DNA of 64,000 bases, taken from positions 558,001-622,000 of the forward strand of contig NZ_CP114280.1 in the NCBI RefSeq assembly GCF_029635795.1. Direction: 5' to 3'. The DNA is from Dickeya lacustris. Lineage in GTDB: Bacteria; Pseudomonadota; Gammaproteobacteria; Enterobacterales; Enterobacteriaceae. Positions 1 through 22,400 of the stretch are shown in pieces. The notes under the pieces are model-generated. The model worked only from the letters and a program-made list of their open reading frames with translations, was not told the DNA's origin and did no database searches. The translations under genes and the position numbers were made by a program. Numbering within the stretch: position 1 is the first letter of the stretch; each line of letters opens with the position of its first letter.

Positions 1-60
1 TTTTCGGTACACGTCATCCACCGTCAGCAGCGCATCGGCGCGGGGTTTACGGTTGGCCAT
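1..60 (-). CDS. Tyrosine recombinase of unit 3, N-terminal 20 codons only
   Basis: Only the start of this gene lies in the window; the rest is beyond base 1. The 20 codons differ from the complete integrase at 6408-7517 by one visible residue (DDVY instead of DEVY). The start codon at 58-60 overlaps or abuts the end of the primase reading frame, as in the other units. It is inferred to be the site-specific recombinase of cassette unit 3; no catalytic residue can be checked here. Confidence 0.8.
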   Translation of the reverse strand, partial: MANRKPRADALLTVDDVYRK

Positions 61-600
61 GTGTCACCTCCGTTTTCCCGGCCACAGGCAGCGGTGCGGA
101 TGGCGATGTTTGTGTTCCCTTTCTTACTGTCTCTGACTCAGCCCCGACCGCTTCCGCCGTCAGCCCTTGTGCCGTCTGGCCCGACGCAGGTTTTTCACGC
201 CCCGACCGGCTGCCGACCACACCCCGACCGGGGGCCGACTGAGCGGCGTCCAGCCCCGACCGGTCGGCATTGCCCTCAGCCTCGCCGTTTTTACTCGCAG
301 GCAGCGGCGCAGATGGCGATGCTGGGTTCCCCCTGATTACTGCGTCTGACTCAGCTCCGACCGGTTCCGCTGTCAGCCCTTTCCCTGTCTGGCATGACGC
401 CGGTTTTTCATGCCCCGACCGGCTGCCGACCACACCCCGACCGGGGGCCGACTGAACGGTATCCAGACCCGACCGGTCAGCATTGCCTTCTGTCTCCGGG
501 GTCGCGTCTTCCACCTCCAGCAGCCCGCACAGGTGCGCCCCGCCGTTGTCGTCACCGTCCCACAGCAGCCCGTATTCATACGTCAGACCGCGCCGGAACC
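47..600 (-). pseudogene. Displaced C-terminal tail of the unit 3 primase, with an internal duplication
   Basis: This frame encodes YEYGLLWDGD...HLCGLLEVED and ends THGQP, matching the C-terminus of the intact primase at 14973-18014, but it is out of frame with the main unit 3 primase ORF that stops at 576. A single-base change near 590-600 would join them. The tail is Ser/Pro/Gly rich and contains two tandem copies of a roughly 70-residue segment starting EGNADRSGLD, which the other two primases lack. The tail is probably a dispensable linker. Whether the frame change is natural or a sequence error cannot be decided here. Confidence 0.6.
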
Positions 601-3290
601 AGCAGCAGGTATTCCATTTCCAGCAGCCTGCCAAGGTGGATTTTCAGTTGCGTGTCACCCCAGCCCAGCGAGGAGCGCACCTCCCGCCGCGTGAACCGTA
701 TCTCGTCCACCTTCACCGCCTGACCCTGCGCACGCGCCTGCACCCAGCCCTTCAGCCACACCAGCAGCTTGCGCGTCTGCGGCGGCATTTCATCCAGCGT
801 CCGGCCCAGCACCTCGTGGGCCAGCTGATTGGCCAGCGCGATATCGCCTTTTTCCACCTCGATATACTCGATAACCTGCCCCCGGTGCTCGACCCGCTTC
901 ACCGCCCGCTGGTACTGGTGCAACAGCGCGATGGCCTGTATCAGCGTCAGGTACTTCATATGGTCGCGCCGGGTGCGGGTCTTGTCCGACAGGAACGTCA
1001 GCCGGTCAGCATACGGATTCACCACCTTCAGCGGGCGCAGCAGCCGCTGCGCGTTCTGGTGCAGCGTCGTCAGGTACTGCTTTTCTGAGGATTGCAGCAG
1101 CCCGGCCAGCGTCTGCCCGTGGCGCTGCATCGCGTGTATCGCCTGCGTCTGCTCCCGTGACTCGTTCACCGTCAACACCAGACAGCGGTTCAGCAGCTCT
1201 TCATCCACGTCGCTGGCCGTGGTGGTCAGCATCAGCATCACCGGTCCCTGTACCTTGTATTCCCGCGTCACCAGTTCGCCGCTCTGCTCGTTCTTGCCGG
1301 TACTGGCGATTTTCAGCTCCCCGTCCGACTGCAACAGCTTGAGCGCATACGCTGCCTGCCTGACCCCTTCTTCTTCCGCGATGGCCAGTATCTTGTGCTG
1401 TAACGAAGTCTCGCCGAGGTAATACAGGCTCTGCCCGGTCATCGCGCTGTACTGGATACGCTCTTCTTCCGGCATCATCCCCAGCACCGCGTCCATCAGC
1501 GAGGATTTCCCCGCCGCCGAGCTGCTCTGTATCAGCACGGCCAGCGGTTTATCCAGCTTGCGCGACGTCGCCGCCAGATACCCGGTCAGCAGATTGGTAC
1601 GTTCCCCCACCACCCCGCAGGCGGCCAGGTCATCCACGATACGGGCGGCAAGGTCCGGGGACTTGAGTAACGCCAGTGCGTCCGCTTCGTCTTGTGCGCT
1701 GACTGTGACCGCCGGAGCGCGTTCGGCCTGCTCTGCCGCCTGCCGCTGACGCGCCTGTTGCTGCTCAAGCCAGAGCAGCACCCGCCCGCACTCGCGCTTG
1801 ATGACTGAAGACTCGCACTCAAGCTCTGCCGCCGCCGCGCTGATATACCCCTGACGATGACGTGAACTGTACATATCCAGACTGTCTACATGGAACGCGC
1901 CCGTGCTCTCGTCCCGCACCTGCACGTTGACCTTCATCACCTCGGCCACGGTGTTTTTCTGCCAGCCCCGCACCCGCCACACCCGCGGGCCGTGGGTCAG
2001 CAGCAGGTCGCCGGACGGGGTTAACTCCCCCGCCACCGTCTGCGCCGGTACGCCCGCCGGGGCGGCTAAGGAAGAAGGCTCACGCTCGCCACTCACCGGC
2101 ATATCACGGGAGAACACCACCCCCGGCCCGCTGCCTTTGCCCATCCATGCCGCCTGCTCCAGTGCCAGCCCTAATGCCGATTCCGGGCTGCCACTGTTCA
2201 GCGCATACGCATTCGCATCCAGCCCCGGCGGGAACCGCACCCGCCACGCCTCGATACCGCACTCCAGCAGCTCCGCCGCCACACTCTCCGCGCCCCGGTC
2301 GCCTGCTGCGTCACGGTCATAGGCTATCTGTACCCGTTTCACGCCGTGGTACTGCAACGCGGCCAGATGGTCAGCAGTGAAGCCGTTGGCCCCGTAGGCC
2401 GTGGTGACGTTGCGGAACCCGGCACACCAGAACGTCATCGCATCGATCAGCGACTCGCACAGGATAAGGTCCGACGACGCCTTCAGCGCTGCCTCGTTCC
2501 ACACCCCGGCCAGCGGCGACGGCAGATACAGGTGCTTCGGCGAGCCTTTGAGGATTTTGTGGTCCGGCTGCACCCGCCGCCCGTACAACTGCATCACCCG
2601 GCCACGCTGCGCCACATTTGCCGACTCTGCCCAGCCGATAACCGGCATCACCACGCAACCCCGGAAGTGGTCCTGCTTCGTGGTCGCCCGCAGCACCCCC
2701 AGCCCGGCCAGTTTCTCGCGCAGCCGTTTTCCCTCGTGGCTCGACGAGGACGGCAACAGCCCCGCGCTGCCGCCGATGCCGTGGTGACCGGCGAACCCCA
2801 GCCGGAAGTGACTCACCAGTTCAGGATGATCCAGCCCGCGACTGACCAGCCACTGCTGCGCCTCCGGGCTGTCGAGCAGGCTCTGGTGGTAGAAGTGGAT
2901 AACCTGATTCAGCAGCGCCTGGCCGTCATCATCCAGGTCGGCGAGTCTGGTACGGGCCACCGCTGGCGAGGCGGGGACAGGAACGGCGGCTAAAGAAGGG
3001 GCGGTCCCGGCCAGCTCCCGCAGCCGCAACAGGGTTTGCGGGTAGGTCAGCCGCTCGGTGTGTTGCAGCCAGTCCAGCACCGACCCCGACGCCCCGCAGC
3101 CGAAGCAGTGGTACAGGTTTTTTGACGGTGTGATGACGCAGGACGGCGTGTTTTCCTGATGGAACGGGCACCGGCACACAACACTGTCCGCACCCTGCTT
3201 TTTAAGCCGATGCCCCTGAGACTGCGCCACGGCCCGCAGCGACACCCCGCGTTTCAGTTGCTCCAGCTCTGCCGGTGTCAGTCGTCCCAT
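576..3290 (-). CDS. CHC2 zinc-finger / TOPRIM / P-loop primase-helicase, unit 3
   Basis: Domains run in the order zinc finger (CxCPFH...CFGC, first 70 residues), TOPRIM-type catalytic region (ESLIDAM and the acidic YDRDAAGDRG motif) and a P-loop ATPase (SSSAAGKSS, then AIAEEEG as a likely Walker B). This combination is typical of plasmid, phage or satellite primase-helicases that start replication of a mobile element. The start at 3290 (MGRLTP) is chosen because AGGAG lies 8 bases upstream; a longer frame to 3308 exists. It differs from the unit 1/2 primases at many positions. The reading frame ends early in VPARSDV because of a frame change near 600, and the tail continues at 47-600. The recombinase gene follows immediately. 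Confidence 0.8.
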   Translation of the reverse strand: MGRLTPAELEQLKRGVSLRAVAQSQGHRLKKQGADSVVCRCPFHQENTPSCVITPSKNLYHCFGCGASGSVLDWLQHTERLTYPQTLLRLRELAGTAPSLAAVPVPASPAVARTRLADLDDDGQALLNQVIHFYHQSLLDSPEAQQWLVSRGLDHPELVSHFRLGFAGHHGIGGSAGLLPSSSSHEGKRLREKLAGLGVLRATTKQDHFRGCVVMPVIGWAESANVAQRGRVMQLYGRRVQPDHKILKGSPKHLYLPSPLAGVWNEAALKASSDLILCESLIDAMTFWCAGFRNVTTAYGANGFTADHLAALQYHGVKRVQIAYDRDAAGDRGAESVAAELLECGIEAWRVRFPPGLDANAYALNSGSPESALGLALEQAAWMGKGSGPGVVFSRDMPVSGEREPSSLAAPAGVPAQTVAGELTPSGDLLLTHGPRVWRVRGWQKNTVAEVMKVNVQVRDESTGAFHVDSLDMYSSRHRQGYISAAAAELECESSVIKRECGRVLLWLEQQQARQRQAAEQAERAPAVTVSAQDEADALALLKSPDLAARIVDDLAACGVVGERTNLLTGYLAATSRKLDKPLAVLIQSSSAAGKSSLMDAVLGMMPEEERIQYSAMTGQSLYYLGETSLQHKILAIAEEEGVRQAAYALKLLQSDGELKIASTGKNEQSGELVTREYKVQGPVMLMLTTTASDVDEELLNRCLVLTVNESREQTQAIHAMQRHGQTLAGLLQSSEKQYLTTLHQNAQRLLRPLKVVNPYADRLTFLSDKTRTRRDHMKYLTLIQAIALLHQYQRAVKRVEHRGQVIEYIEVEKGDIALANQLAHEVLGRTLDEMPPQTRKLLVWLKGWVQARAQGQAVKVDEIRFTRREVRSSLGWGDTQLKIHLGRLLEMEYLLLVPARSDV

Positions 3291-3393
3291 TTCCGCTGCT
3301 CCTGTCAAAAACCCGTCAATAACCGTTTAATGTTTTAATTAGATACCTTATACTGTGTATATGTCAAACAGTATTAGAGGGACAGGTTACAGT

Positions 3394-3762
3394 ATGGCTA
3401 CGTCAACTTTGTGGTTCTTACCGATGAACTTTCCTGCTCGTCTGATACAACTGCGCAAGGCCGCCGACCTGACTCAACAGGCGTTAGCCGACAGCGCCTC
3501 CATTCATGTCAACCAGATACGCCGTTATGAGGCGGGGTCGGCGCAACCCACCTTAGACGCCCTGATTCGGCTGGCTAAGGTGCTGCGTGTCTCGCTGGAT
3601 GGGCTGGTGTTTGATGACCACGAGCGTGGCCCGTCTGATGATTTGGCGTTGCAGTTTGAGGCCGTCAGCGGGATGCCCGAAGAAGAGCGCCGGATTATCA
3701 AGGCGTTACTGGATGGGATGATACTGAAGTACCAGGCTAAACAGATTACTGAGCGCGGTTAG
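3394..3762 (+). CDS. XRE-family helix-turn-helix regulator, unit 3
   Basis: A protein of about 122 residues with a Cro/CI-type HTH (LRKAADLTQQALADSASIHV, then RRYEAGSAQPTLDALIRLAKVL) and a short acidic C-terminal region. It is divergent from the primase and sits just before symE on the same strand, so it probably represses the shared primase/xre promoter region and perhaps symE. The ATG at 3394 follows a purine-rich stretch; a frame opening at 3355 is less likely. It is clearly different in sequence from the regulators of units 1 and 2, in keeping with a separately acquired cassette. Confidence 0.75.
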   Translation: MATSTLWFLPMNFPARLIQLRKAADLTQQALADSASIHVNQIRRYEAGSAQPTLDALIRLAKVLRVSLDGLVFDDHERGPSDDLALQFEAVSGMPEEERRIIKALLDGMILKYQAKQITERG

Positions 3763-3798
3763 AACAGGCGGCTACCTGCTCCAACCGCTCACCACTGG

Positions 3799-3822
3799 CA
3801 ACTAAACGAGGTAGTTACTATG
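3799..3822 (+). promoter_or_regulatory. Conserved hairpin with ribosome site before symE (unit 3)
   Basis: AACTA-aacgagg-TAGTT followed by ACTATGGCT. The GAGG ribosome site is the loop of a 5-bp stem. The same bases occur before the unrelated-length symE copies of units 1 and 2 although the flanking genes differ, which suggests selection for the leader. Confidence 0.45.
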
Positions 3823-4044
3823 GCTGGACGCGATTCTAAGGCAGAACCCCGCGCAACTGAAGTAAAAGAACCCCAACGGCATTACACCGTCGGCTACGCC
3901 CCCAACGGCATGAAGGGCAACCCGCCGCCGCAACTCACGCTGAAGGGCCGCTGGCTGGAAGATCTCGGCTTTAACACCGGCCAGCCGGTTATCGTCACCG
4001 TTGAGCGCGGGCGGCTGGTGATTGAAGCGGAGATTAGGATCTGA
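3820..4044 (+). CDS. SymE-like toxin-family protein, unit 3
   Basis: 74 residues matching the SymE pattern: YTVGYAPNG near the start, then PQLTLKGRWLEDLGF, and an AbrB-like strand region (GQPVIVTVERGRLVIEAEI). SymE is known in E. coli as an SOS-induced, RNA- or nucleoid-associated type I toxin. SymE-like proteins are also common hitchhikers beside CDI and Rhs toxin ends. The gene starts downstream of a short conserved hairpin that holds its ribosome site (3799-3815). Its role here is not known. Confidence 0.8.
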   Translation: MAGRDSKAEPRATEVKEPQRHYTVGYAPNGMKGNPPPQLTLKGRWLEDLGFNTGQPVIVTVERGRLVIEAEIRI

Positions 4045-4049
4045 CTGGT

Positions 4050-4082
4050 AAAAATGACGATCCCGGCGCGAAGGCCGGGATC
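4050..4082 (-). terminator. Terminator after the unit 3 immunity gene
   Basis: Stem GATCCCGGC (4059-4067) with GCCGGGATC (4074-4082), followed on the minus strand by GTCATTTTT. It lies just past the immunity stop codon and also between the convergent symE and immunity genes. Confidence 0.75.
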
Positions 4083-4086
4083 GGTA

Positions 4087-4452
4087 TCAGAGTGGCATTT
4101 TTTCCAGCAGAGCTTTTATCCTTGCTTCATCTTCAGGATGCTTTTGCAGATATTTTTCACAAGCCAGACGAACATATTTAAAACACGTTTCTTCGCTAAC
4201 AATGACCGTATCTGCTTCAGAGGGAGGATAGCCAACGGCAAACTCCACACCATCAAAATGCTCACTCTCATCGTAACTATTCATGTCAGGAAAATTACAA
4301 TACGCCCCATCAGTACTAAATCCTATTTTTTTTATAATATATTCAATGACTTCAAAAAAATCTTTATCAGAAGACATTATATTAAAATAGCCTACTATGA
4401 CCTCATTTAGCCCTGAATGTACGTCTGACATTTCAAATAAATTTTTATTCAT
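4087..4452 (-). CDS. cdiI: CdiI-type immunity protein for the EndoU-like toxin
   Basis: 121 residues, acidic, AT-rich DNA. It starts with ATG 18 bases after the stop of the toxin tail at 4471-5502, the standard CDI toxin-immunity order. The sequence ([17 protein letters not shown]..., [20 protein letters not shown]) resembles proteins annotated as ribonuclease toxin immunity protein CdiI, which accompany EndoU-type CdiA-CTs; this family call is from memory. It is inferred to bind and block the toxin in the cytoplasm. It is unrelated in sequence to the Imm8-like protein of units 1 and 2. Confidence 0.65.
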
Positions 4453-4470
4453 ATCAACTTACCCAGTAAA

Positions 4471-5502
4471 TTAATTCGGATGGAAGTTCCTTACTGTCCC
4501 TGTGGACTTATCAACATATATCCTGAAGCTAATACCGCCAGCGGTAACATTGGCAGTTCCATTCGGGCTACTCATTGCTTCCTTATAGCCATTGGCTGCT
4601 GCCTGTTGCCCAAGTTCTAATATTTTCTGATCGGAGAATATTTTAGGATCATAAATAGTCTTTGTTTCAGGTGTTGCTTTGTAATCTCCGGTAAGGTTCC
4701 CAGCCCGATCTTTAGTAGGTATCAGATACTTCACTTCGGTGATGCCATTCACTCCACTTGGTGTTTCACTAACGATTTTTACATTGTATTCCTTAGCTGC
4801 ATCATAAAAAGCATTAGCATTATGACCCCCTGAAATTCCATTTTTCTGTGTGAATCCGTCTACTGTTGACAGATGTTTTGGCTGATCAATTCTGAAGCTA
4901 ATCCCATCAGGATAAGTAACTGTTGCTACGTCCCCTTTGGTCGTCACAGTGACTTTTTCACCAGAAGCCAGCCGGACAACAGCAGTCTCACCAGCAACGG
5001 AACCTATTCCTTTCATCCCGGCCAGAGCACTGACAATCCCATGTAACTGCATCGCCGTATCATACTGCGATGCCACCTCATCCCAGCCTTTTCCGGTGGC
5101 TTTGGCGATGGCGGTGATGGCCGCATCGCGGGTGATGCTGCCTTCATCCAGCCCTTTCAGGATGGCGCTCACATTGGCTGCGTCCTGCGGGTACAGGTCT
5201 TTGTAAATCAGACGATAGCTCGCCGCACTTTCACCATAACTGTTTAACGCCTGCTGCGCCTGAGCCACCAGTGCCGAGCACGCCCCGCCTGACTTGTTGC
5301 CCTGCGTACAGATATCGTGGATGGCCTGGTCACGGTCTTTGTCCAGTTTGCGGGTATCAGCCAGCTCTTTGGCTTCGTCCGCTGTCAGTGTCCCGTCTTT
5401 TTCCCTGCGCTCCAGCACCGCTTTCTTTGCGGCTTCCGTTGCACTCAGATAGTTATTCTCCACAACAACGTCATCCGTTGCGAAGTCAGCCGCCGAACCC
5501 AC
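4471..5502 (-). CDS. Orphan CdiA-CT: VENN pretoxin plus EndoU-like nuclease domain (unit 3)
   Basis: 343 codons, opening with MGSAADFATDDVV and the VENNYLS motif, then a pretoxin/entry region (about residues 20-190), then a C-terminal domain containing GISGGHNANAFYDAA, EVKYLIPT and a GGISFRIYVD-type ending. The GGHN...F pattern and the terminal GISFR strand are typical of the bacterial EndoU RNase family, so an RNA- or tRNA-cleaving toxin is inferred. There is no TPS or FHA region: it is a detached toxin end. A GTG at 5500-5502 with AGGGA just upstream could allow weak independent translation. From VENN onward it is in the same phase as hecA, so loss of DNA between cores would fuse it to the hecA stalk. 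Confidence 0.7.
   Translation of the reverse strand: MGSAADFATDDVVVENNYLSATEAAKKAVLERREKDGTLTADEAKELADTRKLDKDRDQAIHDICTQGNKSGGACSALVAQAQQALNSYGESAASYRLIYKDLYPQDAANVSAILKGLDEGSITRDAAITAIAKATGKGWDEVASQYDTAMQLHGIVSALAGMKGIGSVAGETAVVRLASGEKVTVTTKGDVATVTYPDGISFRIDQPKHLSTVDGFTQKNGISGGHNANAFYDAAKEYNVKIVSETPSGVNGITEVKYLIPTKDRAGNLTGDYKATPETKTIYDPKIFSDQKILELGQQAAANGYKEAMSSPNGTANVTAGGISFRIYVDKSTGTVRNFHPN
5444..5463 (-). other. VENN-coding core, junction of units 2 and 3
   Basis: GTGGAGAATAACTATCTGAG on the minus strand, identical to the cores at 12911-12930 and 20377-20396. Upstream sequence is shared with the unit 2 core; downstream sequence is unique to the EndoU tail. It marks the exact point where sequence relationships change and is a candidate recombination core. 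Confidence 0.65.
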
Positions 5503-6407
5503 TTTTTCCCTGTGCAGTCAGCCGGTTACAGCCGGTTTTCCCTGAGGCGTTTTGATACCCGGACACCGACGCCCCGATACGCGGTTTTGGCCCCCGACAC
5601 GCTACCGCCCTGCCGGGGCTTTCGCCTGCAACCCACGCATCATAGCAGCGGCGGCAGCCGCTGCCATCCGGTGTTGGGGGTTCGGTTTGGGGTTTCATCG
5701 CAACCCGTGACGGGGCCACAGCTTGCCTGTGGCACCGGCGCGGGGGTCTGCCGGTGCGGACGGCACAGAGTCCGCAAGCGACGCCCTGCGGCGCTCTGTG
5801 GCTCCGACGGTTAAGGTGAAGAGGCACCTGCATGACCACGCCACACCGGGGCGGGGGCGAAGGCTGGCCGGCACGGGAACGAGCAAGGAGCCTGCGACTG
5901 CGAGCCGTGACGGACAGATGCAGCGGGCGGGCATGAAGCCCTTCAGCGGAGGCCCGACGGGCCGACTTCTTCTTTGGGGTGGATGTTGAGGATAACGCGA
6001 GGGGGGAGACCTGATGACATCTGGACTCGATGCTGACGCCGGTGTCTCCGGCAACACAAGGCGGCCAGGAAGCCGAAGAACGCACACCACCGCCGACAGC
6101 GGAAGGCAGCGCCTTGCGCGCCGCGCCTCACCCGCGATGCCGATGGCGGGGGCGCAAGACATAATGCGGATTATACGATACGAGCCGCACCTCGCAGCGG
6201 GAACGGGCGCTGTCGTTACCCGGCGAGCTTCGTATAATCCCCCGCATTATGTTGAACGGCTGACCGGCCAGCCGCCGGGGTGACACGGAGCACCGCCGCA
6301 CAACGCGGGCCGGGCGGACGTTTACCCCCGCCCGCGATGCCGCCTGACGGCAGTCAGCCCGCCGGGCTGTCTGCCGAACCCGCTCCGCCGCACTCGACCG
6401 GAGAGCG
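5503..6407. other. Noncoding tail of unit 2, GC-rich and highly foldable
   Basis: About 900 bp without a convincing gene; ORFs here have atypical composition. It is repeated at 12970-13875. It contains closely packed hairpins: GCCACAG/CTGTGGC (5715-5733), CACCGGC/GCCGGTG (5733-5756) and GCGGAC/GTCCGC nearby with an alternative CACAGAG/CTCTGTG pairing. It also contains the long inverted repeat at 6160-6251. It could be a replication origin for the primase, a recombination site region, or a structured RNA; the sequence does not choose between these. Confidence 0.5.
6160..6251. repeat. Long inverted repeat in unit 2
   Basis: Left arm 6160-6178 (CATAATGCGGATTATACGA) pairs with right arm 6230-6251 apart from a 3-base CCC bulge, enclosing 51 bases. 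It lies beyond the recombinase stop codon. It is a candidate recombinase or origin site. The arms are AT-rich in a GC-rich setting. Confidence 0.75.
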
Positions 6408-7517
6408 CTAACTTTTGGGGCTGTCCGGCCACACGGGCGTGTCGTCCGGCTCCGGGGTGTCCGGCTGCTCCGCCGCTATCAGGTCGGCCAGCAGCCCGGT
6501 TTCATCACTGTCCGACTGCTCCGCCGGATGCGTCGAGGCATGAACCGCCTGCAACGCCCGGATGCTCACCTGCGTGTAGATTTGCGTGCTCTCCACGCTC
6601 GCATGGCCCAGCATCGCCTGTATCCACCGCAGGTCCGCCCCGTTCTCCAGCATTTGCGTGGCCATCGCGTGCCGGAACAGGTGGCAGCTTCCCCATTTCG
6701 CTATCCCCGATGCCCTGATGTAGTGACTCACCAGATTGGTGATGCCGTTCGGCGTCAGTCCCTCGACACCATCCAGGGCCACGAACAGTGCCGGGCAGTG
6801 CGGGTTCACCAGCAGTTGCGGCCTCACCGCCTGCACGTAATACGTCAGCCAGCGCAGCGCCCGCTGCCCGACCGGGATAACCCGGTCTTTCTTCCCCTTG
6901 CCCTGCACGATGGTCACGATATGGCGGCTCGCGTCCACGCTGTACACCTCCAGCATCGCCACTTCACCCCGCCGTATCCCGGTTGACCACAGCAGCTCCA
7001 TCAGCGCCCGGTCGCGGATGCCCTGCAACGTGGTCAGGTCCGGCAACGCCAGTACCTGCTCCACGTCCGCCACGCTCAGGATATGGCGCGGCAGCCGCTT
7101 TTCCAGTCGCGGCAACACCAGACCCGACGCCGGGTCGGCCAGCAGCAGATGATGCCGCGTCATCCAGCCGAACCACACCACCAGTGGCCCCAGCTGGCTG
7201 CGCTGCGTCCGGGTGCTCAGTGGCTCCCCGTTCGGCTTGCGGTACTGGTACAGATGGCGCTGGTAGTGCTCCAGTATCGGTAAGGTGATGTCCCGGCCAT
7301 AGTGCAGCCCGCGCTCCGCCGCCCACAGGATGAACCGGTACTGATGATGGGTTTGCGTCTTCAGCGTCGTCTCCGACCAGTTCCGCTCCCGACGCCATGC
7401 CACGAACCTCAGCAGCAGCGCGTACAGGCTTTTCGGGTCGCTGGCCGGGCCGATGGGTTTTCGGTACACCTCATCCACCGTCAGCAGCGCATCGGCACGC
7501 GGTTTACGGTTGGCCAT
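6408..7517 (-). CDS. Tyrosine recombinase (phage integrase family), unit 2, intact
   Basis: 369 residues with an N-terminal SAM-like DNA-binding region and a catalytic domain holding all the expected residues: Arg in STGIRRGE, Lys in GKGKKDRV, His-x-x-Arg in HLFRHAMAT, His in LGHAS and the tyrosine nucleophile in TQIYTQV. The length and motifs are XerD-like, with a Pro/Asp/Glu-rich C-terminal tail. The start overlaps the 3' end of the primase by 14 bases, so the two are likely translated together. It is inferred to move or resolve the cassette at the VENN cores or at the inverted repeat. This is the only full-length recombinase in the window; the unit 1 copy has a frame change. Confidence 0.9.
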   Translation of the reverse strand: MANRKPRADALLTVDEVYRKPIGPASDPKSLYALLLRFVAWRRERNWSETTLKTQTHHQYRFILWAAERGLHYGRDITLPILEHYQRHLYQYRKPNGEPLSTRTQRSQLGPLVVWFGWMTRHHLLLADPASGLVLPRLEKRLPRHILSVADVEQVLALPDLTTLQGIRDRALMELLWSTGIRRGEVAMLEVYSVDASRHIVTIVQGKGKKDRVIPVGQRALRWLTYYVQAVRPQLLVNPHCPALFVALDGVEGLTPNGITNLVSHYIRASGIAKWGSCHLFRHAMATQMLENGADLRWIQAMLGHASVESTQIYTQVSIRALQAVHASTHPAEQSDSDETGLLADLIAAEQPDTPEPDDTPVWPDSPKS

Positions 7518-10500: not shown

Positions 10501-10543
10501 CGCGTTTCAGTTGCTCCAGGCTCTGCCGGTGTCATCGTCCCAT
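7504..10543 (-). pseudogene. Primase-helicase of unit 2, interrupted by frame changes
   Basis: Nearly identical to the intact primase at 14973-18011 but broken relative to it. There is an extra base near 10422 (CACCGG to CAGCCGG), a lost C near 9477 and an extra C near 9105, plus a compensating pair near 10520-10535. The largest open pieces are 9451-10437, 9065-9514 and 7504-9144. Zinc-finger, TOPRIM and P-loop motifs all survive within pieces. Most indels fall in C runs, which points towards consensus error in a repeat as much as towards real decay. Confidence 0.8.
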
Positions 10544-13875: not shown

Positions 13876-14986
13876 CTAACTTTTGGGGCTGTCCGGCCAC
13901 ACGGGCGTGTCGTCCGGCTCCGGGGTGTCCGGCTGCTCCGCCGCTATCAGGTCGGCCAGCAGCCCGGTTTCATCACTGTCCGACTGCTCCGCCGGATGCG
14001 TCGTGTTATTATAATAATGCAACGCCCGGATGCTCACCTGCGTGTAGATTTGCGTGCTCACCACGCTCGCATGGCCCAGCATCGCCTGTATCCACCGCAG
14101 GTCCGCCCCGGTCTCCAGCATTTGCGTGGCCATCGCGTGCCGGAACAGGTGGCAGCTTCCCCATTTCGCTATCCCCGATGCCCTGATGTAGTGACTCACC
14201 AGATTGGTGATGCCGTTCGGCGTCAGTCCCTCGACACCATCCAGGGCCACGAACAGTGCCGGGCAGTGCGGGTTCACCAGCAGTTGCGGCCTCACCGCCT
14301 GCACGTAATACGTCAGCCAGCGCAGCGCCCGCTGCCCGACCGGGATAACCCGGTCTTTCTTCCCCCTTGCCCTGCACGATGGTCACGATATGGCGGCTCG
14401 CGTCCACGCTGTACACCTCCAGCATCGCCACTTCACCCCGCCGTATCCCGGTTGACCACAGCAGCTCCATCAGCGCCCGGTCGCGGATGCCCTGCAACGT
14501 GGTCAGGTCCGGCAACGCCAGTACCTGCTCCACGTCCGCCACGCTCAGGATATGGCGCGGCAGCCGCTTTTCCAGTCGCGGCAACACCAGACCCGACGCC
14601 GGGTCGGCCAGCAGCAGATGATGCCGCGTCATCCAGCCGAACCACACCACCAGTGGCCCCAGCTGGCTGCGCTGCGTCCGGGTGCTCAGTGGCTCCCCGT
14701 TCGGCTTGCGGTACTGGTACAGATGGCGCTGGTAGTGCTCCAGTATCGGTAAGGTGATGTCCCGGCCATAGTGCAGCCCGCGCTCCGCCGCCCACAGGAT
14801 GAACCGGTACTGATGATGGGTTTGCGTCTTCAGCGTCGTCTCCGACCAGTTCCGCTCCCGACGCCATGCCACGAACCTCAGCAGCAGCGCGTACAGGCTT
14901 TTCGGGTCGCTGGCCGGGCCGATGGGTTTTCGGTACACCTCATCCACCGTCAGCAGCGCATCGGCACGCGGTTTACGGTTGGCCAT
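13876..14986 (-). pseudogene. Tyrosine recombinase of unit 1, one frame change
   Basis: Identical over long stretches to the intact recombinase at 6408-7517, but five Cs at 14362-14366 replace four, shifting the frame in the GKGKKDR segment. The two pieces are 14009-14986 and 13876-14304. A second difference is a local replacement near 14005-14022 (VHASTHP versus HYYNNTTHP) downstream of the catalytic tyrosine. If the extra C is an error the protein would be active, since all catalytic residues are encoded. Confidence 0.85.
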
Positions 14987-17900
14987 GCGTCACCCCCGCG
15001 CTCTCAACCGGCGTATCGCCGACCGCAGGCAGCGGCACGACAGGCGATATTTGTGTTCCCTTTCTTACTGCGTCTGACCCGGCCCCGACCACATCCGCCG
15101 TCAACCCTTGCCTTGTCTGGCCTGACGCCGGTTTTTCCACGTCAGACTTGCCCCGGACTTGAGGCAGACTTAAGCCGGACTTTTCCGCCTCCGGGCCAGA
15201 CTTGCGCTCACTGCCTTCAGGCTCGTCCACCTCCAGCAGCCCGCACAGGTGCGGGTCATCGCCGGTGTTGCCATCCCACAGCAGCTCATACTGCAACAGG
15301 TGCCCCCGGCTGCCGCCGTGCAGCAGCAGGTATTCCATTTCAGCCAGCCGCAGACAGTGGTTCTTGAGCTGGCTGTCGCTCCAGTTGGTCCATGCCCGGA
15401 TATCCCGCCGCGTGAACCGCACCTCACCGGGCTGGCAGCCCTGACGCTGCGCCTGTTCGCCCACCATCGCCTGTATCAGCAGCAACAGTTTCCTCGTCTG
15501 TGGCGGCATTTCATCCAGCGTCCGGCCCAGCACCTCGTGGGCCAGCTGATTGGCCAGCGCGATATCCGACCGCTCGACCTCGATGTATTCGATAACCTGC
15601 GCCCGGTGCGTTACCCGCTTCACCTCGCGCAGGTATTGATGCAACAGCGCGATGGCCTGGATTAACGTCAGGTACTTCATATGGTCGCGCCGGGTGCGGG
15701 TTTTATCACTCAGGAACGTCAGCCGGTCGGCATACGGATTCACCACCTTCAGCGGGCGCAGCAGCCGCTGTGCGTTCTGGTGTAGCCGGGTCAGGTACTG
15801 TTTTTCTGATGACTGAAGCAGCCCGGCCAGCGTCTGACCGTGGCGTTGCATCGCGTGGATGGCCTGCGTCTGCTCTCTGGATTCGTTCACGGTGAGAACA
15901 AGGCAACGGTTCAGCAGCTCTTCATCCACGTCGCTGGCCGTGGTGGTCAGCATCAGCATCACCGGCCCCTGCACCTTGTATTCCCGCGTCACCAGCTCGC
16001 CGCTCTGCTCGTTCTTGCCGGTACTGGCGATTTTCAGCTCCCCGTCCGACTGCAACAGCTTGAGCGCATACGCCGCCTGCCTGACCCCTTCTTCTTCGGC
16101 TATCGCCAGTATCTTGTGCTGTAACGAGGTTTCACCAAGGTAATACAGGCTCTGCCCGGTCATCGCACTGTACTGGATACGCTCTTCTTCCGGCATCATC
16201 CCCAGCACCGCGTCCATCAGCGAAGATTTCCCCGCCGCCGAACTGCTCTGTATCAGCACGGCCAGCGGTTTATCCAGCTTGCGCGACGTCGCCGCCAGAT
16301 ACCCGGTCAGCAGATTGGTACTTTCCCCCACCACCCCGCAGGCCGCGAGGTCATTGATGATACGTTCAGCCAGATGGGGGGATTTCAGCAGTTCCAGTGC
16401 CGCCGCCTCGTCTTCCGCACTCACCGTGACCGCAGCGGTCGCGTCGGCCTGCTCCGACGCCTGCCGCTGACACTCCTGTTGCTGCTCCAGCATCAGCAGC
16501 ACCCGGCCGCACTCGCGCTTGATGACCGACGCGTCACAGCCCAGCTCCGCCGCCGCCGCGCTCACATACCCCTGACGCTGCCGCGAACTGTACAGGTCCA
16601 GCGAGTCCACATGCAGCGCGCCGGTTGACTCGTCCCGCACCTGCACGTTCACCTTCATCACCTCCTGTACGGTGTTTTTCTGCCAGCCGCGCACCCGCCA
16701 GACTCGCGGGCCGTGGGTCAGCAGCAGGTCGCCGGATGGGGTTAACTCGCCCGCCACCGTCGGTGCCGGTACGCCCGCCGGGGCGGCTAAGGAAGAAGGT
16801 TCACGCTCGCCACTCACCGGCATGTCACGGGAGAACACCACCCCCGGCCCGCTGCCCTGGCCCATCCATGCCGACTGCTCCAGTGCCAGCCCTAACGCGC
16901 TTTCCGGGTTGCCGCTGTTCAGTGCATAGGCATTCGCATCCAGCCCCGGCGGGAACCGCACCCGCCATGCTTCGATACCGCACTCCAGCAGGTCCGCCGC
17001 CACCGACGCCGCGCCCCGGTCGCCTGCCTCGTCCCGGTCATAGGCTATCTGCACCCGCTTCACGCCGTGATACTGCAACGCCGCCAGATGGTCAGCGGTA
17101 AAGCCGTTGGCCCCGTACGCCGTGGTCACGTTGCGATAGCCCGCACACCAGAACGTCATCGCGTCGATCAGCGACTCGCACAGGATAAGGTCTGACGACG
17201 CCTTCAGCGCTTCCTCGTTCCACACCCCGGCCAGTGGCGACGGCAGATACAGGTGCTTCGGCGAGCCTTTGAGGATTTTGTGGTCCGGCTGCACCCGACG
17301 ACCGTACAACTGCATCACCCGGCCTCGCTGGGCCACGCTCGCCGACTCCGACCAGCCGATAACCGGCATCACCACGCAGCCCCGGAAGTGGTCCTGCTTC
17401 GTGGCCGCGCGTAGCACCCCCAGCCCGGCCAGTTTCTCACGCAGCCGCTTTCCTTCCTGACTCGACGAAGACGGCAGCAGCCCCGCGCTGCCGCCGATAC
17501 CGTGATGACCGGCGAACCCCAGCCGGAAGTGGCTCACCAGTTCAGGATGAGCCAGACCGCGACTGACCAGCCACTGCTGCGCCTCCGCGCTCGCCAGCAG
17601 GCTCTGGTGGTAGAACTGGATAACCTGATTCAGCAGCGCCTGACCGTCATCATCCAGGTCGGCGAGTTTGGTACGGGCCACCGCTGGCGAGGCGGGAACA
17701 GGGGCGGCGGCTAAAAAAGACGGATTACCGGCCAGCTCCCGCAACCGCAGCAGGGTTTGCGGATACGTCAGCCGCTCGGTGTGTTGCAGCCAGTCCAGCA
17801 CCGACCCCGACGCCCCGCAGCCGAAGCAGTGGTACAGGTTCTTCGACGGCGTGATGACACAGGACGGCGTGTTCTCCTGATGGAACGGACACCGGCACAC

Positions 17901-18011
17901 AACACTGTCCGCCCCCTGCTTTTTCAGTTGATGGCCCTGAGACTGCGCCACGGCCCGCAGCGACACCCCGCGTTTCAGTTGCTCCAGCTCTGCCGGTGTC
18001 ATTCGTCCCAT
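14973..18011 (-). CDS. CHC2 / TOPRIM / P-loop primase-helicase, unit 1, intact
   Basis: About 1012 residues. A CHC2-type zinc finger lies at about residues 40-67 (CRCPFH...HCFGC). The TOPRIM region has ESLIDAM near 283 and YDRDEAGDRG near 325. A P-loop NTPase has SSSAAGKSS near 590 and an acidic AIAEEEG box. The C-terminal region looks like a winged-helix or linker segment and a variable Ser/Pro-rich tail ends THGQP. The ATG at 18011 is preferred over the GTG at 18014 because GGAGG lies 5 bases upstream. The recombinase start overlaps its end. It probably primes and unwinds a circular or single-stranded form of the cassette; this is inference from domain makeup. Confidence 0.85.
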   Translation of the reverse strand: MGRMTPAELEQLKRGVSLRAVAQSQGHQLKKQGADSVVCRCPFHQENTPSCVITPSKNLYHCFGCGASGSVLDWLQHTERLTYPQTLLRLRELAGNPSFLAAAPVPASPAVARTKLADLDDDGQALLNQVIQFYHQSLLASAEAQQWLVSRGLAHPELVSHFRLGFAGHHGIGGSAGLLPSSSSQEGKRLREKLAGLGVLRAATKQDHFRGCVVMPVIGWSESASVAQRGRVMQLYGRRVQPDHKILKGSPKHLYLPSPLAGVWNEEALKASSDLILCESLIDAMTFWCAGYRNVTTAYGANGFTADHLAALQYHGVKRVQIAYDRDEAGDRGAASVAADLLECGIEAWRVRFPPGLDANAYALNSGNPESALGLALEQSAWMGQGSGPGVVFSRDMPVSGEREPSSLAAPAGVPAPTVAGELTPSGDLLLTHGPRVWRVRGWQKNTVQEVMKVNVQVRDESTGALHVDSLDLYSSRQRQGYVSAAAAELGCDASVIKRECGRVLLMLEQQQECQRQASEQADATAAVTVSAEDEAAALELLKSPHLAERIINDLAACGVVGESTNLLTGYLAATSRKLDKPLAVLIQSSSAAGKSSLMDAVLGMMPEEERIQYSAMTGQSLYYLGETSLQHKILAIAEEEGVRQAAYALKLLQSDGELKIASTGKNEQSGELVTREYKVQGPVMLMLTTTASDVDEELLNRCLVLTVNESREQTQAIHAMQRHGQTLAGLLQSSEKQYLTRLHQNAQRLLRPLKVVNPYADRLTFLSDKTRTRRDHMKYLTLIQAIALLHQYLREVKRVTHRAQVIEYIEVERSDIALANQLAHEVLGRTLDEMPPQTRKLLLLIQAMVGEQAQRQGCQPGEVRFTRRDIRAWTNWSDSQLKNHCLRLAEMEYLLLHGGSRGHLLQYELLWDGNTGDDPHLCGLLEVDEPEGSERKSGPEAEKSGLSLPQVRGKSDVEKPASGQTRQGLTADVVGAGSDAVRKGTQISPVVPLPAVGDTPVESAGVTHGQP

Positions 18012-18045
18012 CACACCCTCCTGTAAAAAAACCTGTCAATAGACA

Positions 18046-18074
18046 TTGTAGTAGCATATATAGGGGACTATAAT
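18046..18074 (+). promoter_or_regulatory. Sigma-70 promoter for the unit 1 xre gene
   Basis: TTGTAG at 18046-18051, 17-base spacer, TATAAT at 18069-18074. The spacer differs locally from unit 2 (AGCATATATAGGGG versus GTTTTAATATAGGG) but keeps its length. Confidence 0.7.
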
Positions 18075-18113
18075 GTGGTCAATAAGTCAAGCAGCTAAAA
18101 AGGGAGGCTTACA

Positions 18114-18500
18114 ATGCAGATATCACTGTCACGCTGGTTCTGTGAGGAAGATATGCAACAGTTTGCTGCCCGACTGAAGGAGGCCAGAGAGGCCCGTAAG
18201 ATGACGCAGGCCAGACTGGCCGAGCTGCTGGAAGTTGACCGCCGCGTTTATAACCGCTGGGAACGCGGTGCATCCGTTCCCCAGCTTGACGCCGTGGTCA
18301 GGATTGCACAGGTGTTGCAGACCAGCCTTGATTCACTGGTCGGGCTGGAGCCCATGACGCCGCCGCAGATCCACAACCCGCGTTTACAGGCACTGGTCAC
18401 ACAGATGGATTCGTTATCGGATGAAGATCAGCAGGCGCTGATCGTCCTGATGGACAGCCTGCTTAAACGCTCGAAGATGACGCAGTTACTGACGTCGTAG
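18114..18500 (+). CDS. XRE-family regulator, unit 1
   Basis: 128 residues, twin of the unit 2 regulator, with EDQQ in place of EEKQ near residue 110. It has a Cro/CI-type HTH in the first 75 residues. It is transcribed away from the primase and towards symE, with a strong ribosome site (GGGAGG) and the promoter at 18046-18074. A role as cassette repressor is inferred from position and fold. Confidence 0.8.
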   Translation: MQISLSRWFCEEDMQQFAARLKEAREARKMTQARLAELLEVDRRVYNRWERGASVPQLDAVVRIAQVLQTSLDSLVGLEPMTPPQIHNPRLQALVTQMDSLSDEDQQALIVLMDSLLKRSKMTQLLTS

Positions 18501-18573
18501 AAGGGATTTGCTACAGAAGAGTCGATTTTTACCAGCGCAGAGCTACCGGGCTGCCACCCGATAACCCTGCTAA

Positions 18574-18604
18574 CCACAAGCAACTAAACGAGGTAGTTAC
18601 TATG
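18574..18604 (+). promoter_or_regulatory. Conserved ribosome-site hairpin before symE (unit 1)
   Basis: Same AACTA-aacgagg-TAGTT leader as in units 2 and 3. Confidence 0.45.
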
Positions 18605-18889
18605 GCTGTACGCGATGATAAGGCAATACAACGCATTTCCCAAGCCGAACGCTATGCACGCGCCCGCTTTCAGGCGGTGCCCCTGCAAGGGGCCTGGCTT
18701 ACCGAAGCCGGCTTTACCGACGGGATGCCGTTAAAAATACGGGTCATGCCCGGCTGCATGGTCATCACCACCCAGAACACCCGCGAGCTGTGGCACTGTC
18801 TGGAAGGTCTCAGCATTGAACCCTTTGACCCGGACGCGGCGGCCAACTGGATCAAGCATTACCCCGGCGGCCTTAAGTTCGCCGAGTAA
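18602..18889 (+). CDS. SymE-like protein, unit 1
   Basis: 95 residues, same as the unit 2 protein except Cys for Arg in the VMPGCMVIT strand. The SymE core (GAWLTEAGFTDGMPLKIRV) plus a C-terminal extension ending GGLKFAE. It lies between the immunity gene and xre, facing the immunity gene. Its presence in every cassette unit suggests a function tied to cassette upkeep, but none can be assigned. Confidence 0.75.
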   Translation: MAVRDDKAIQRISQAERYARARFQAVPLQGAWLTEAGFTDGMPLKIRVMPGCMVITTQNTRELWHCLEGLSIEPFDPDAAANWIKHYPGGLKFAE

Positions 18890-18899
18890 CCACTCTCAC

Positions 18900-18927
18900 C
18901 CCCGGCCCGCGCCGGGGTTTTTGTTTT
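18900..18927 (+). terminator. Terminator after symE, unit 1
   Basis: CCCCGGC-ccgc-GCCGGGG followed by TTTTTGTTTT. Confidence 0.9.
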
Positions 18928-18962
18928 AACTCGGGGGTGTCGGGCGTGGCCCTGACCGGATG

Positions 18963-19000
18963 GTTTTGTCATTCCGTCGGCATGACGGTAATGACAAAAC
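18963..19000. repeat. Long hairpin between symE and imm1
   Basis: GTTTTGTCATTCCGTC with its near-perfect complement GACGG-t-AATGACAAAAC around a GGCAT loop; outer CCGGA/TCCGG bases may extend it. The unit 2 copy is at 11495-11532. Confidence 0.7.
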
Positions 19001-19094
19001 ATTTCCTGTCCGGGTGGTTGAAGCTTTTTCGGGCAACCTCGCCGATCAGGTTCAAGGGCGACGGGGATGAAGGCGTAACTCAAAAGCTGACTGG

Positions 19095-19127
19095 TAAAAA
19101 TGACGATCCCGGCGCGGGGCCGGGATC
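19095..19127 (-). terminator. Terminator after the unit 1 immunity gene
   Basis: GATCCCGGC (19105-19113) pairs with GCCGGGATC (19119-19127), followed on the minus strand by GTCATTTTT. It ends the hecB-hecA-immunity transcript. Confidence 0.75.
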
Positions 19128-19131
19128 TTGC

Positions 19132-19485
19132 TCAAGGCTGGTAATCTTCATATTCCCAGGCAAAGACGCGGGAAAGCTTCTGTGCGATCTCCATCCAGTC
19201 GTTACCTTCGCACTGATCGATATAGTCTGTGATGGTCTTTTTAATCTCATCCAGATCGTATTTACGAACCAGCAACGTGTGCCGCATCAGTTCCGGCAAC
19301 CATCGGTGCTTGCAGAGCCATTCAGGAGTACAGATAAGTAGCTGATAATCGTGTCCACCTTCCTGATCGTCAGGGCCAATACATAAGTTAATCCACAGGC
19401 CAAAACAATCACCTTCTTCAGGCTTATAAGTTTCAGGGCTAAACTCCGCTGAGTTAACCCCCAAGTTTTTAAGTATTCCTTTCAC
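19132..19485 (-). CDS. cdiI: Imm8-family CDI immunity protein, intact
   Basis: 117 residues, acidic. The pattern matches Imm8: an N-terminal strand, GDCFGLWINLCIGP, LLICTPEWL, a basic RHTLLVRKYD segment, ITDYIDQCEGNDWMEIAQKL and a terminal WEYEDYQ. The start is GTG at 19485, overlapping the hecA stop as GTGA, so toxin and immunity are translationally coupled. It is inferred to neutralise the hecA toxin end in siblings. The unit 2 copy is broken, so this is the only intact gene of its kind in the window. Confidence 0.85.
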   Translation of the reverse strand: MKGILKNLGVNSAEFSPETYKPEEGDCFGLWINLCIGPDDQEGGHDYQLLICTPEWLCKHRWLPELMRHTLLVRKYDLDEIKKTITDYIDQCEGNDWMEIAQKLSRVFAWEYEDYQP

Positions 19486-22400
19486 TGAGTAATCCCCATG
19501 TGACCATTACTAACTCTTTTACCATCTTTCAGCGTTTCGAAATTTGCCTGTACACCAGTTGGATTCAGATCTTGCGGTGTATTTGGCTTGGATGCAGGGA
19601 AGCGATATACCCTTGTGCCATCAGCACTAACCCAACCTTTACCATCAGTAAGCAATCTGGAACCATCGCCAACCCATATTTGGCCTAATCTATCCGCCTC
19701 CTCCGCAGTTCCCATTCCTACAGAGAAGTTCGGGTTTGTTGTACCGCTACCTTTAACAACTTCTGCCAGTCTCGGATCCTGCTTCGCAATATTGTTCAGG
19801 TTCTGTTGAACCAAATCATCTTTTAGACTCGAATAAGCTGCCACGTTCTCCGCACCGCTCGACGGTTTACCTTCTGTCTGCGTGCTGCCTGCTCCCGGTT
19901 TTTCTGACGGTGCCGATGGTTTCACTCCCGGCGTTAATCCTTCATCCGCCGCTTTACCCGCTCCGATTCCGGCCAGACCACCGGCGATATACATCGCCCC
20001 CATCTGGTAGCCCACCGCCGATTTCGCCGCCTCTTCACTCATCCCGGTGCGCATATACGCCGCAACCATACCGTTGAACAGTTCCCGCGTCTGTTTCGCT
20101 TCCTCGCCGGTGCTCACCAGTAACTGCTGTATCTGCTGATAACCGTCCTGCGTTTCCTTCGGATTCTGATAGCCCAGATTTTGATAGGTCGCCTGTTTCT
20201 CCAGCGCATCCTGGCGGGCGGCACTACAGGCTGAAGCACTGCCATCCATACAGGCTGCAACCAGTTCCTTACTGGTTTGCGCATCCTTACGATTCAGCGC
20301 ATCACGCTCCTGTTTTTCCTGCTCGGTCAGGTTTTCTTTGTGATTGAGATACGTCTGGCGGCTCTTGTCCGTGCTGCTCAGATAGTTATTCTCCACCGCA
20401 TTGCGACCGGCCTGCGCGCCGCTGGCGGCCGCGTCCACATTCCCGGAGACGATCCCCGCTGCCAGCCCCGCCGCCACCGAAGCCAGCGCGCTGACCGACT
20501 GTTTCTCCGTTTCCGTCAGCGTGTTGCCGTCACGACCCGGGTACAGCGCCTGCATGATAAGCAGCCGCGCCGCCAGTTCGCCGCCCGCCGCGCCCACAGC
20601 CCCTGCCGCTGCATCCTTGCCCGACACCTGCGCCACCACCGCCCCCACCAGCGCATGGCCCATCGCATTCGCCGCAATGTCCGAGGCCGTGGCGTTCTTC
20701 TCGTCCACTGGCATCGTCGCCTTTTTCACCAGTTGCGCCAGATACGGCGCCGACGCCCCTGCCAGCGCCTGTTGCAGGTTGCCGCCACCCGCCAGTGCCT
20801 GCAACGCCGCCGTCGCCGCCTGCAGCCCGCGCTGCACGTCGCTGCCCGTGCCGTACGACGCCATCACCGCCTTGTACGCCGGCGTCTCCGCCAGGTCTTT
20901 CCGGTATTTATCCCACGCGGCCTCGGAGGCGGTATCCGGCAGGCGATCCACCTTGCCACTGGCTTCTGCCGCCTGTGTCGCCCGGATATCCCCCGCCGTG
21001 CGCACCACCTCCATCACCTGCCCGCCCAGCGCCCCCACCGACTGCGCCAGCTGCAAGCGCTGCTGCTCCTTCTCCTTGTCAAACAGCGGACTCAGCCCGT
21101 TCGCCGCGTGCGCCGCATCCCGGCTCAGGCCCGCCACGTCCTGCTGCTGACCGCCCGGGTTGCGGATAATCAGCGCCCCCTCGCTCACCGCCGCGTACGT
21201 GGTGCTGGCAGCATTGCCGCCCCGCCCCAGTGACATCAGCGCCGACGGCGTGGTCATCGCCGCCGTTTTCAGCGCATCCATCAGCCCCGGCGCCGTGCTC
21301 AGGCTTATCCCGCCGCCGCTGTGCGACACCGAAAACTCGGCCCGGTTGTCAATATTGCCAAAGCCCAGCGTGCCCGTCTCCAGCCGGTTCTTCTCCGCGC
21401 TGGCCGTCGAGCCTATCACCGCGCCATCCAGCTGGGTGTGGTTGCCGACATGAATGTCGTAGCCCCCCTGACCGGCAAACAGCCCGGTCTGCTGCTGCAC
21501 GCTGTCAAAACGGCTGCGCAGCTTGTCCCGGCTGGCCCCCAGATAGGCGCTGCCGGTCATGCTGCCAACGGTCAGGCTGCCGCCCGCCGACACGCTGGTC
21601 TGCGTCGAGTCATAGCGGTTGCTGTCCTGCTGGCTCGCCAGCCGCAGGTCGCCGCCCACGTTCGCCACAATGCGCTCGCCGCTCACCTGTGCCCCGGTCA
21701 GCCGCGTATCGCCGCCGCTGGTCAGGCTCACCTGATGCCCCGCATCCACCGTGGTCTCCGACCAGCTGTTGCCGCTGCCGAGCTCACGGCCGCTGGCCGC
21801 ATTGCCGTTGGCAAACACGCTGAACCCGGCCCCGCCATTGCTCAGGCCGACGCTGACACCGATATTCCCGCCGCTGCTGTGGTTGCTGCCGCTCATCGAC
21901 TCGGTGTTGCGCGCCGACAGCAGGTTAATCGCCCGCGACGCGTTCAGCGCCACATTGTTGGCCGCCTTCATCTGGCTACCGACGGCGGTGATATCCCCCT
22001 CGCGCGCCACCACGCTGATATCATGGCCCGCGTTCAGCGTCGAGGCAAAACTCTGCCACTGCTCGTGGGTCTGGCTGCTCGCCGCGCGCTGCGACCCCAG
22101 CGACACGCTGATGCCAACAAACGACGAGGCCCCCAGATTATTGGTATCCAGCTGCGTGCCCTGATATGCCTGATACCCCGACAGCGCTGCCTTCATCCCT
22201 TCCAGCGCCCGCAGCCGGCTGTCGCTCTGCGTCCGCGCCGCCTGCACCGCCTGCACCCCGGCGTTGATGGCCGCGCCCACCACGCCTGACAGCGCCACCG
22301 TCAGGCCCGCCGTCTTCTGCTCGAGGCGCTGTGTCTGGCTGTGCTGGTCGTGGCCCGGGTCCAGGGTGACGCGTTCACCCGTCACCTGAATGTCCCGCGC

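Follow-up and report, generated by a model that had tools for sequence, protein, structure and literature searches.

The turnover of CdiA and Rhs toxin ends has so far been put down largely to homologous recombination. In contact-dependent growth inhibition (CDI) loci, displaced toxin-antidote pairs, the orphan cdiA-CT/cdiI modules, stand in tandem behind cdiA (Poole et al., 2011, PMC3150448; Ruhe et al., 2016, PMC4927057); here, as for every paper cited below, our statements refer to the accessible part of the source. Ruhe et al. (2016) found integrase and transposase genes between orphan modules, suggested site-specific recombination and proposed that a new module integrating into cdiA displaces its predecessor, the route given for orphan activation being homologous recombination. 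We analysed a 64,000-nucleotide stretch of the Dickeya lacustris chromosome (RefSeq assembly GCF_029635795.1, contig NZ_CP114280.1, positions 558,001 to 622,000; hereafter the window), in which a similar array of toxin-antidote units stands behind a cdiA gene. These units are likely to be integrative mobile elements that insert at the VENN codons of cdiA by means of their own Xer-type recombinase, giving the carrier a new in-frame toxin end together with a predicted antidote. There is good support for a whole family of such Xer-primase integrative elements, whose edges fall at boundary codons of polymorphic toxins.

The array resembles the orphan modules in its tandem arrangement, and its proposed origin agrees with the displacement model of Ruhe et al. 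(2016); in the accessible text of that paper, however, there is no defined element, core, dyad or primase, nor a mechanism common with rhs, and the words integrase, recombinase, primase, site-specific and transposase are absent from the accessible text of Poole et al. (2011). In the switching of Salmonella orphan Rhs modules a new toxin end is likewise fused to the rhs carrier, but by duplication and homologous recombination over 522 bp, without a recombinase of its own (Koskiniemi et al., 2014, PMC3967940). The rAID arrays of Bacteroidales (PMC12247911, preprint) also have a tyrosine recombinase next to their interbacterial-defence genes; they are made of orphan immunity genes and, as far as the accessible text goes, lack toxin ends, a primase and a toxin-gene target. 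Similarly, XerC/D recombinases lie beside the immunity-gene clusters of polyimmunity loci (Zhang et al., 2012, PMC3482391), where the accessible text mentions neither 'primase' nor 'integrase' and has no element with edges at toxin boundaries; in the literature searched, this paper and a gonococcal genome study were the only ones to mention both CdiA and xerC. An earlier note on this DNA, made from the sequence alone, had called the system undescribed to its author's knowledge. No description of the element family, of its core or of its dyad was found in the literature searched, which covered subscription papers and preprints in part, although the integrases among orphan modules had already been noted by Ruhe et al. 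(2016).

A search of the window found one 20-bp string at 5444-5463, 12911-12930 and 20377-20396, always on the minus strand, and no further copy with up to 3 mismatches elsewhere in the window (0 expected). The first 12 bp of this string, GTGGAGAATAAC, occur six times in the whole 4.37-Mb chromosome, which is a single contig, and all six copies are confined to one array (C1:544605-578396), which therefore comprises five units behind cdiA. The window and whole-chromosome counts rule out that these cores are chance matches or a local repeat. The array lies on the minus strand, 3' of the cdiA gene with its PT-VENN domain, and the V-E-N-N codons open every unit, in frame with the toxin end. The six junctions have 13 bp in common (the 12 bp and one T), and different genera 12 bp with codon variants. 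The longer match at the three window junctions is due to the three toxins having the same next codons there (Y-L-S), the codons after VENN elsewhere in the array being NFLS and NFMA. Four units are 7.3-7.5 kb long and the last, unit 5, is 4.2 kb long. A large primase and a tyrosine recombinase are encoded in each of units 1 to 4, and each closes with a tail of about 0.95 kb whose final GTTGTT abuts the next core; the opposite-strand genes, where scanned, are a repressor (units 1-3) and symE (units 1 and 2). Neither recombinase nor primase was found in unit 5, which terminates at a displaced piece of cdiA.

Unit 1 (12931..20396, minus strand) starts with the core of the cdiA junction (20385..20396, minus strand), flanked on the gene side by AATGCG. 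The toxin end (19482..20396, minus strand), in frame with the core codons, has a DUF6862 domain followed by a C-terminus without family. After the predicted immunity gene come the divergent symE-like gene (18602..18889, plus strand, PF08845) and xre-type repressor (18114..18500, plus strand), then on the minus strand an intact primase of 1013 aa (14973..18014), a frameshifted recombinase (13876..14986) and the tail (12931..13875), whose GTTGTT adjoins the next core. Unit 2 (5464..12930, minus strand) is 99.0% identical to unit 1 throughout and carries the same toxin, so that the pair is a duplication and not two different cassettes. Adjoining its toxin is a predicted immunity gene of the Imm8 family (11457..11891, minus strand, PF15586), and its further genes are a symE-like gene (11133..11420, plus strand), an xre-type repressor (10645..11031, plus strand), a primase split into 9451-10437 and 7504-9144 (7504..10437, minus strand) and an intact recombinase of 369 aa (6408..7517, minus strand); its 944-bp tail lies at 5464..6407 (minus strand). 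Unit 3 (1..5463, minus strand) extends left of the window to C1:556036 and has a toxin end with DUF6862 and an EndoU nuclease domain (4471..5463, minus strand), an xre-type repressor (3355..3762, plus strand) and a primase with a 910-aa reading frame (576..3308, minus strand), where the DNA matches that of units 1 and 2 with 88% identity; most of its recombinase lies left of the window.

The payloads of units 3, 4 and 5 differ from that of units 1 and 2, and the recombinase-primase backbone is common to units 1-4. Units 3 and 4 align with 94.8% identity from base 1375 up to their ends, and blastn matches nothing between them ahead of that base, in the toxin-end region; units 1 and 3 have most of the backbone in common, its pieces being 79-96% identical, and not the payload. 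The differences between units 1 and 2 are homopolymer indels and short clustered block substitutions (6536-6549/14004-14017, 8098-8107/15567-15576 and 10584-10594/18053-18063), which resemble errors of sequencing or assembly no less than signs of decay. The earlier note had placed identical 20-bp cores at the three junctions of the window, between self-contained cassettes that each pack their own recombinase and primase. The positions proved correct, and the cassettes are self-contained, but the core is shorter than 20 bp, the first two units hold one and the same toxin, and the gene pair is present in four of the five units, not always unbroken.

The recombinase scored 586.8 bits against the NCBIfam PRK01287 XerC subfamily (cut-off 371), and its six catalytic residues RKHRHY, all present in the intact copy of unit 2, are invariant in 88/88 recombinases. 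It scored below the cut-offs of the housekeeping XerC and XerD equivalogs (205.9 vs. 335.15 and 205.0 vs. 329.6 bits), of integron IntI (93.5 vs. 265 bits) and of the GmtY recombinase of GMT islands (22.5 vs. 340), and the edges at VENN or DPxGL codons set the elements apart from integrative mobile elements exploiting Xer (IMEX), which insert at dif. The unit 2 repressor scored 80.0 bits against the RstR family, a value equal to the cut-off of 80. CTX phage and similar integrative elements borrow the host XerCD recombinases, insert at dif and carry an RstR-like repressor; the units described here would be like them in an Xer-type recombination with a short central region and perhaps in that repressor, and unlike them in that the element encodes a recombinase of its own and would target a toxin gene. 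The primase has a zinc ribbon, a Toprim domain and a P-loop domain (residues 529-841) that may be MCM-like, a reading kept tentative because the confidence of the structure model is middling (mean pLDDT, the predicted local distance difference test, 66, with much of residues 579-704 below 50). No relaxase or conjugation gene was found among the scanned genes of the units or in annotated units, which together hold part of the open reading frames. The carrier matches PT-VENN with 65 bits, with DUF6862 after it, and its ends vary between units, as in class I CdiA. Some elements have an extra RelE/ParE-type toxin and antitoxin pair between recombinase and tail (L113, L114, L116 and L118).

A scan of a genome collection confirmed 247 relatives, the best 80 of which, from 71 loci, were kept; with plasmid and Escherichia coli records added, 106 recombinase copies were examined. 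They fall into a VENN group (about 61-96% identity to the window recombinase), whose elements end at VENN codons of cdiA, an rhs group (about 42-50%, one fragment excepted), which ends at DPxGL codons, and a third group. A primase stands beside the recombinase in 39/43, 43/44 and 13/15 copies, respectively, four further copies having been set aside as too near the contig start. Among the 13 loci of the third group whose neighbour genes were scanned, five have DUF637 (L049, from Trinickia, L118, L120, L188 and L189), five have RHS repeats (L119, L190, L191, L195 and L199) and three (L196, L197 and L201) have no carrier among the genes scanned; DUF637-type cores were resolved in L118 and L120 only. 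On a tree of 88 recombinases the labels VENN (22 rows), Rhs (31) and DUF637 (6) need two changes, the minimum for three labels. This count covers 59 labelled rows, 29 with no or another label being left out; labels were assigned per locus, those for DUF637 mostly from the neighbouring gene, and the Rhs label occurs on both sides of a weak midpoint root. Photorhabdus, Xenorhabdus and Pectobacterium carry both target types, which indicates that the target tracks the recombinase and not the host. As a side observation, the rhs-type recombinases of Photorhabdus L059, L061, L065, L066, L069, L071, L073, L076 and L077 are about 470 aa long as read, roughly 100 residues longer than the others.

NF002331 was above its cut-off in 6/398 genomes of the phylum and in 13/394 of the order, the D. 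lacustris genome included. A follow-up sample of 25 copies from 20 regions, 19 taken from the NF002331 lists and one chosen from genome G003 (G458:C38 and some others repeat earlier records), had a primase near the recombinase in 23 copies. Within 2.5 kb downstream, VENN was present in four copies and DPxGL in eight, one of the latter (L187) not at a recognisable tail end; 13 copies had neither, three of them with less than 1 kb of sequence, and four of the 13 had DUF637 or RHS carriers nearby (L188, L189, L191 and L195). Plasmid records that match number 172, of which 142 are from Salmonella; the 25 Salmonella plasmid rows listed after the first five matches align to about 70% of the recombinase length, with 75% identity. 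That the pair consists of ordinary phage genes was considered and rejected: 36 phage records match (E up to 1e-20), all with less than 60% identity.

The right ends were located with a tail profile built for each clade from copies with the motif, which placed 74 of the 106 copies, the other 32 having too little sequence, no recognised tail or membership of the third group. In the VENN clade the tail abuts exact VENN codons in 22 of 37 copies, near-VENN codons in 10, the contig end in one and something else in four rows (three loci); in the rhs clade, also of 37 copies, it abuts DPxGL in 29, near-DPxGL in three (L059, L068 and L116), the contig end in two and something else in three. Since the profiles came from motif-bearing copies these counts are partly circular, and a profile-free scan was made on those copies in which the recombinase is followed by 1600 bp or more. 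It found strict VENN codons 200-1600 bp downstream in 20/36 copies, as compared to 0/36 on the other strand and 1/36 upstream, and DPxGL downstream in 30/36, as compared to one on the other strand and none upstream. In the Dickeya relatives there are, with few exceptions, two kinds of VENN junction, at which either the cdiA homology or the tail homology stops at the core. Genome G007 has one tail followed by ACCGAGAATAAC, a near-VENN sequence, and genome G002 has a VENN-bearing cdiA, with neither recombinase nor primase found over the next 11.7 kb. The earlier note had proposed a site-specific element that targets the VENN codons of cdiA and had asked whether its edges always fall there. Edges at VENN are well supported across genera, with the Leptospira and Providencia plasmids discussed below among the exceptions, but that target was too narrow, given the sisters at rhs DPxGL codons and at DUF637 and RHS-repeat carriers. 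Taken literally, recombinase-primase pairs away from cdiA, which the note would have held against its own idea, do exist in the sister groups; most of these stand at another toxin boundary.

The junction between tail and core has the form of a recombination site. A 6-bp spacer separates two inverted arms there, one formed by the final 6 bp of the tail and the other by core bases 7-12, in the VENN and rhs groups alike. The VENN-type dyad is GTTGTT-GTGGAG-AATAAC, with one mismatch and with the V-E codons GTGGAG as its spacer; the proposed sites of the window lie at 12919..12936 (units 1/2) and 5452..5469 (units 2/3), both on the minus strand, and an rhs-type example is CCCTAT-GACCCG-ATAGGG. Mean arm matches were 4.79/6 for 28 unique VENN-type sites and 4.52/6 for 21 rhs-type sites, and in both groups a spacer of 6 scored best among the spacers of 2-12 tried. 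At gene-side junctions the values were 1.36 (11 sites) and 1.17 (12 sites) of 6. The tail-core dyad, judged on its 6-bp arms, would have the form expected of an Xer site, in which inverted arms flank a centre of about 6 bp. The element seems to bring a full site, and the target gene only the spacer and the right arm, without the left arm.

Several comparisons within and between genomes are indicative of movement. In the complete chromosome of Photorhabdus thracensis, 7,377 bp are 100% identical at 777418-798689 and 2689955-2711226 and the flanks differ; on the left this element begins exactly with the first base of DPIGL, and on the right it stops two bases inside the core. Six contigs of P. 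luminescens carry near-identical backbones that stop at the core, with sequence of five kinds beyond it, and over the stretch compared three units of Dickeya genome G003 show 100% identity. Close relatives of the recombinase occur in 53/5426 complete genomes of E. coli, at 186 places that are all chromosomal (median 4 per carrying genome). Strain D6 has an array in rhs, at a locus where no recombinase is annotated in WP2-S18-ESBL-07, BS90R-A and L725. The left flanks of D6 and WP2-S18-ESBL-07 are 99.7% identical, unbroken through GACCCGATAGGGCTG and falling away after it, and in D6 the right flank, that is, the toxin region of WP2-S18-ESBL-07, resumes 19 kb on, at a second DPxGL, with the same immunity protein WP_000635646.1. 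In addition, two small circular plasmid records (L116 and L117) consist mainly of such units: NZ_CP072857 of Lonsdalea populi (11,289 bp) and NZ_CP055112 of Shigella flexneri (8,758 bp), the latter with ISEc1 and an rhs fragment. In neither was a replicon typed or another replication gene listed. Both fit an excised, possibly replicating form, for which they are candidates.

We propose the following sequence of events. First, the unit would be cut out by its recombinase as a circle, with the tail-core dyad as the site of that circle. The circle would be copied by the primase, whose P-loop domain is tentatively MCM-like, and the repressor and symE may control and stabilise it. It could then recombine with a VENN-coding gene, in which the spacer and the right arm are present from the outset, joining the newcomer toxin to the carrier and displacing the old toxin downstream, so that arrays of spare toxin-antidote pairs would accumulate. 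Sister elements would act likewise at rhs DPxGL codons, with the spacer GACCCG, and within DUF637-type exoproteins. Insertion inside a gene is known from phages and islands such as e14, which enters icd and supplies a substitute 3' end that leaves the product unchanged; here, unlike in that case, the product would become a different toxin with its own antidote. A broader reading, which we consider rather more probable than not, is that a widespread superfamily of self-replicating Xer-primase elements drives the diversification of polymorphic toxins: its lineages would cut at boundary codons (VENN in CdiA, DPxGL in Rhs, those of DUF637 exoproteins), the motifs would double as attachment sites, and bacteria would re-arm by catching circular toxin cassettes.

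A number of observations weigh against insertion by the units' own recombinase. Excision, circle formation, integration, replication and toxin exchange are inferred steps. The right ends of Rosenbergiella L040, Xenorhabdus L048 and the Providencia plasmid L115 in the VENN group, and of P. thracensis L074, L075 and L077 in the rhs group, are exceptions. The right edge of the D6 array is not clean, because ISEc1 sits there and the displaced toxin lacks its first 66 bp. The two circular records could be misassembled tandem arrays, and NZ_CP055112 maps colinearly to E. coli chromosomal arrays. The sites behind the dyad values were selected by a pattern in which the left arm is fixed, and assignment went wrong for some of the gene-side junctions; moreover, the sites within a clade are related by descent, so that the two groups amount to two observations. 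The spacers at the two ends of one unit are identical in 9/15 cases, weakly above chance (shuffled mean 3.9, highest shuffle 10), and in a second set in 10/17, which is uninformative (shuffled mean 9.0), several left ends having been mis-assigned by pattern in this comparison. Finally, the distant primase-recombinase pair on a Leptospira plasmid has no CDI or Rhs-type toxin annotated in the 14.8 kb covered, a long hypothetical edge gene being unscanned, and in the window array three of the four recombinases (units 1, 3 and 4) and one of the four primases (unit 2) are frameshifted or split in this assembly.

The Leptospira pair (L121) stands beside parAB, on a plasmid with RelE- and HicA-type addiction genes annotated, and is possibly close to a plasmid ancestor of the module. 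It bears on the alternative that survives best, less probable than insertion for the benefit of the carrier yet appreciable, namely that the units are a selfish plasmid or satellite for which the toxin-gene codons are a mere landing site, the toxin-antidote pair addicts the host, and the exchange of specificity comes about as a side effect. A primase with a P-loop domain, a repressor, symE and, in some cases, a RelE/DinJ-type pair do resemble replication and stability genes, and the Providencia plasmid L115 (4059, ~10338) carries a VENN-group element that follows an invasin-like gene and is bounded by a VENN core and, at its right end, by TTGAAATATAAC, which is perhaps a secondary site. However, the left end is in frame with the carrier codons and bears a toxin end and a predicted antidote, so that insertion would give a full weapon, and the mechanism is the same as that proposed above, the difference being who benefits. 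That the array is an old record of insertions by elements no longer mobile is improbable: the broken genes of the window, and broken copies elsewhere too, agree with it, but the identical P. thracensis copies at two loci and the identical G003 units point to recent events, full-length copies exist in many genomes, and the homopolymer indels of units 1 and 2 look partly like sequencing error. Homologous recombination or unequal crossing-over alone through shared flanks, as for orphan Rhs modules, with recombinase and primase as passengers, is very improbable, for although the near-identical units 1 and 2 and the identical G003 units fit tandem duplication, displaced cdiA fragments are present in Dickeya arrays and Salmonella orphan activation was ascribed to 522 bp of 95% identity (PMC3967940), the sequence common to cdiA and tail is the 12-bp core alone and that common to rhs and tail is about 14 bp, which is not enough for the ordinary process, a dyad with a 6-bp spacer stands at the edge in two clades of unrelated sequence, and the edge type tracks the recombinase lineage.

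Insertion at boundary codons by an element-encoded recombinase would be a direct and testable route of exchange between carriers that share only a dozen bases. If true, it would explain the orphan arrays and the joint travel of toxin and antidote, and perhaps why the VENN and DPxGL codons stay conserved in DNA; the element could also mark new toxin-antidote pairs for discovery.

Two minor observations concern the genes of the window themselves. The unit 1 primase also matches PADLOC models for DnaG-like proteins of reverse-transcriptase defence systems. The carrier cdiA gene (20397..33481, minus strand), which ends in the PT-VENN domain, is split in this assembly (19482-33481) over three overlapping reading frames, 26915-33481, 22600-27096 (Fil_haemagg and Fil_haemagg_2) and 19482-22646 (Fil_haemagg_2 and PT-VENN), and it contains an 81-bp tandem repeat at 24259-24906, seen as six overlapping 243-nt copies that are 70-88% identical to the reference copy.

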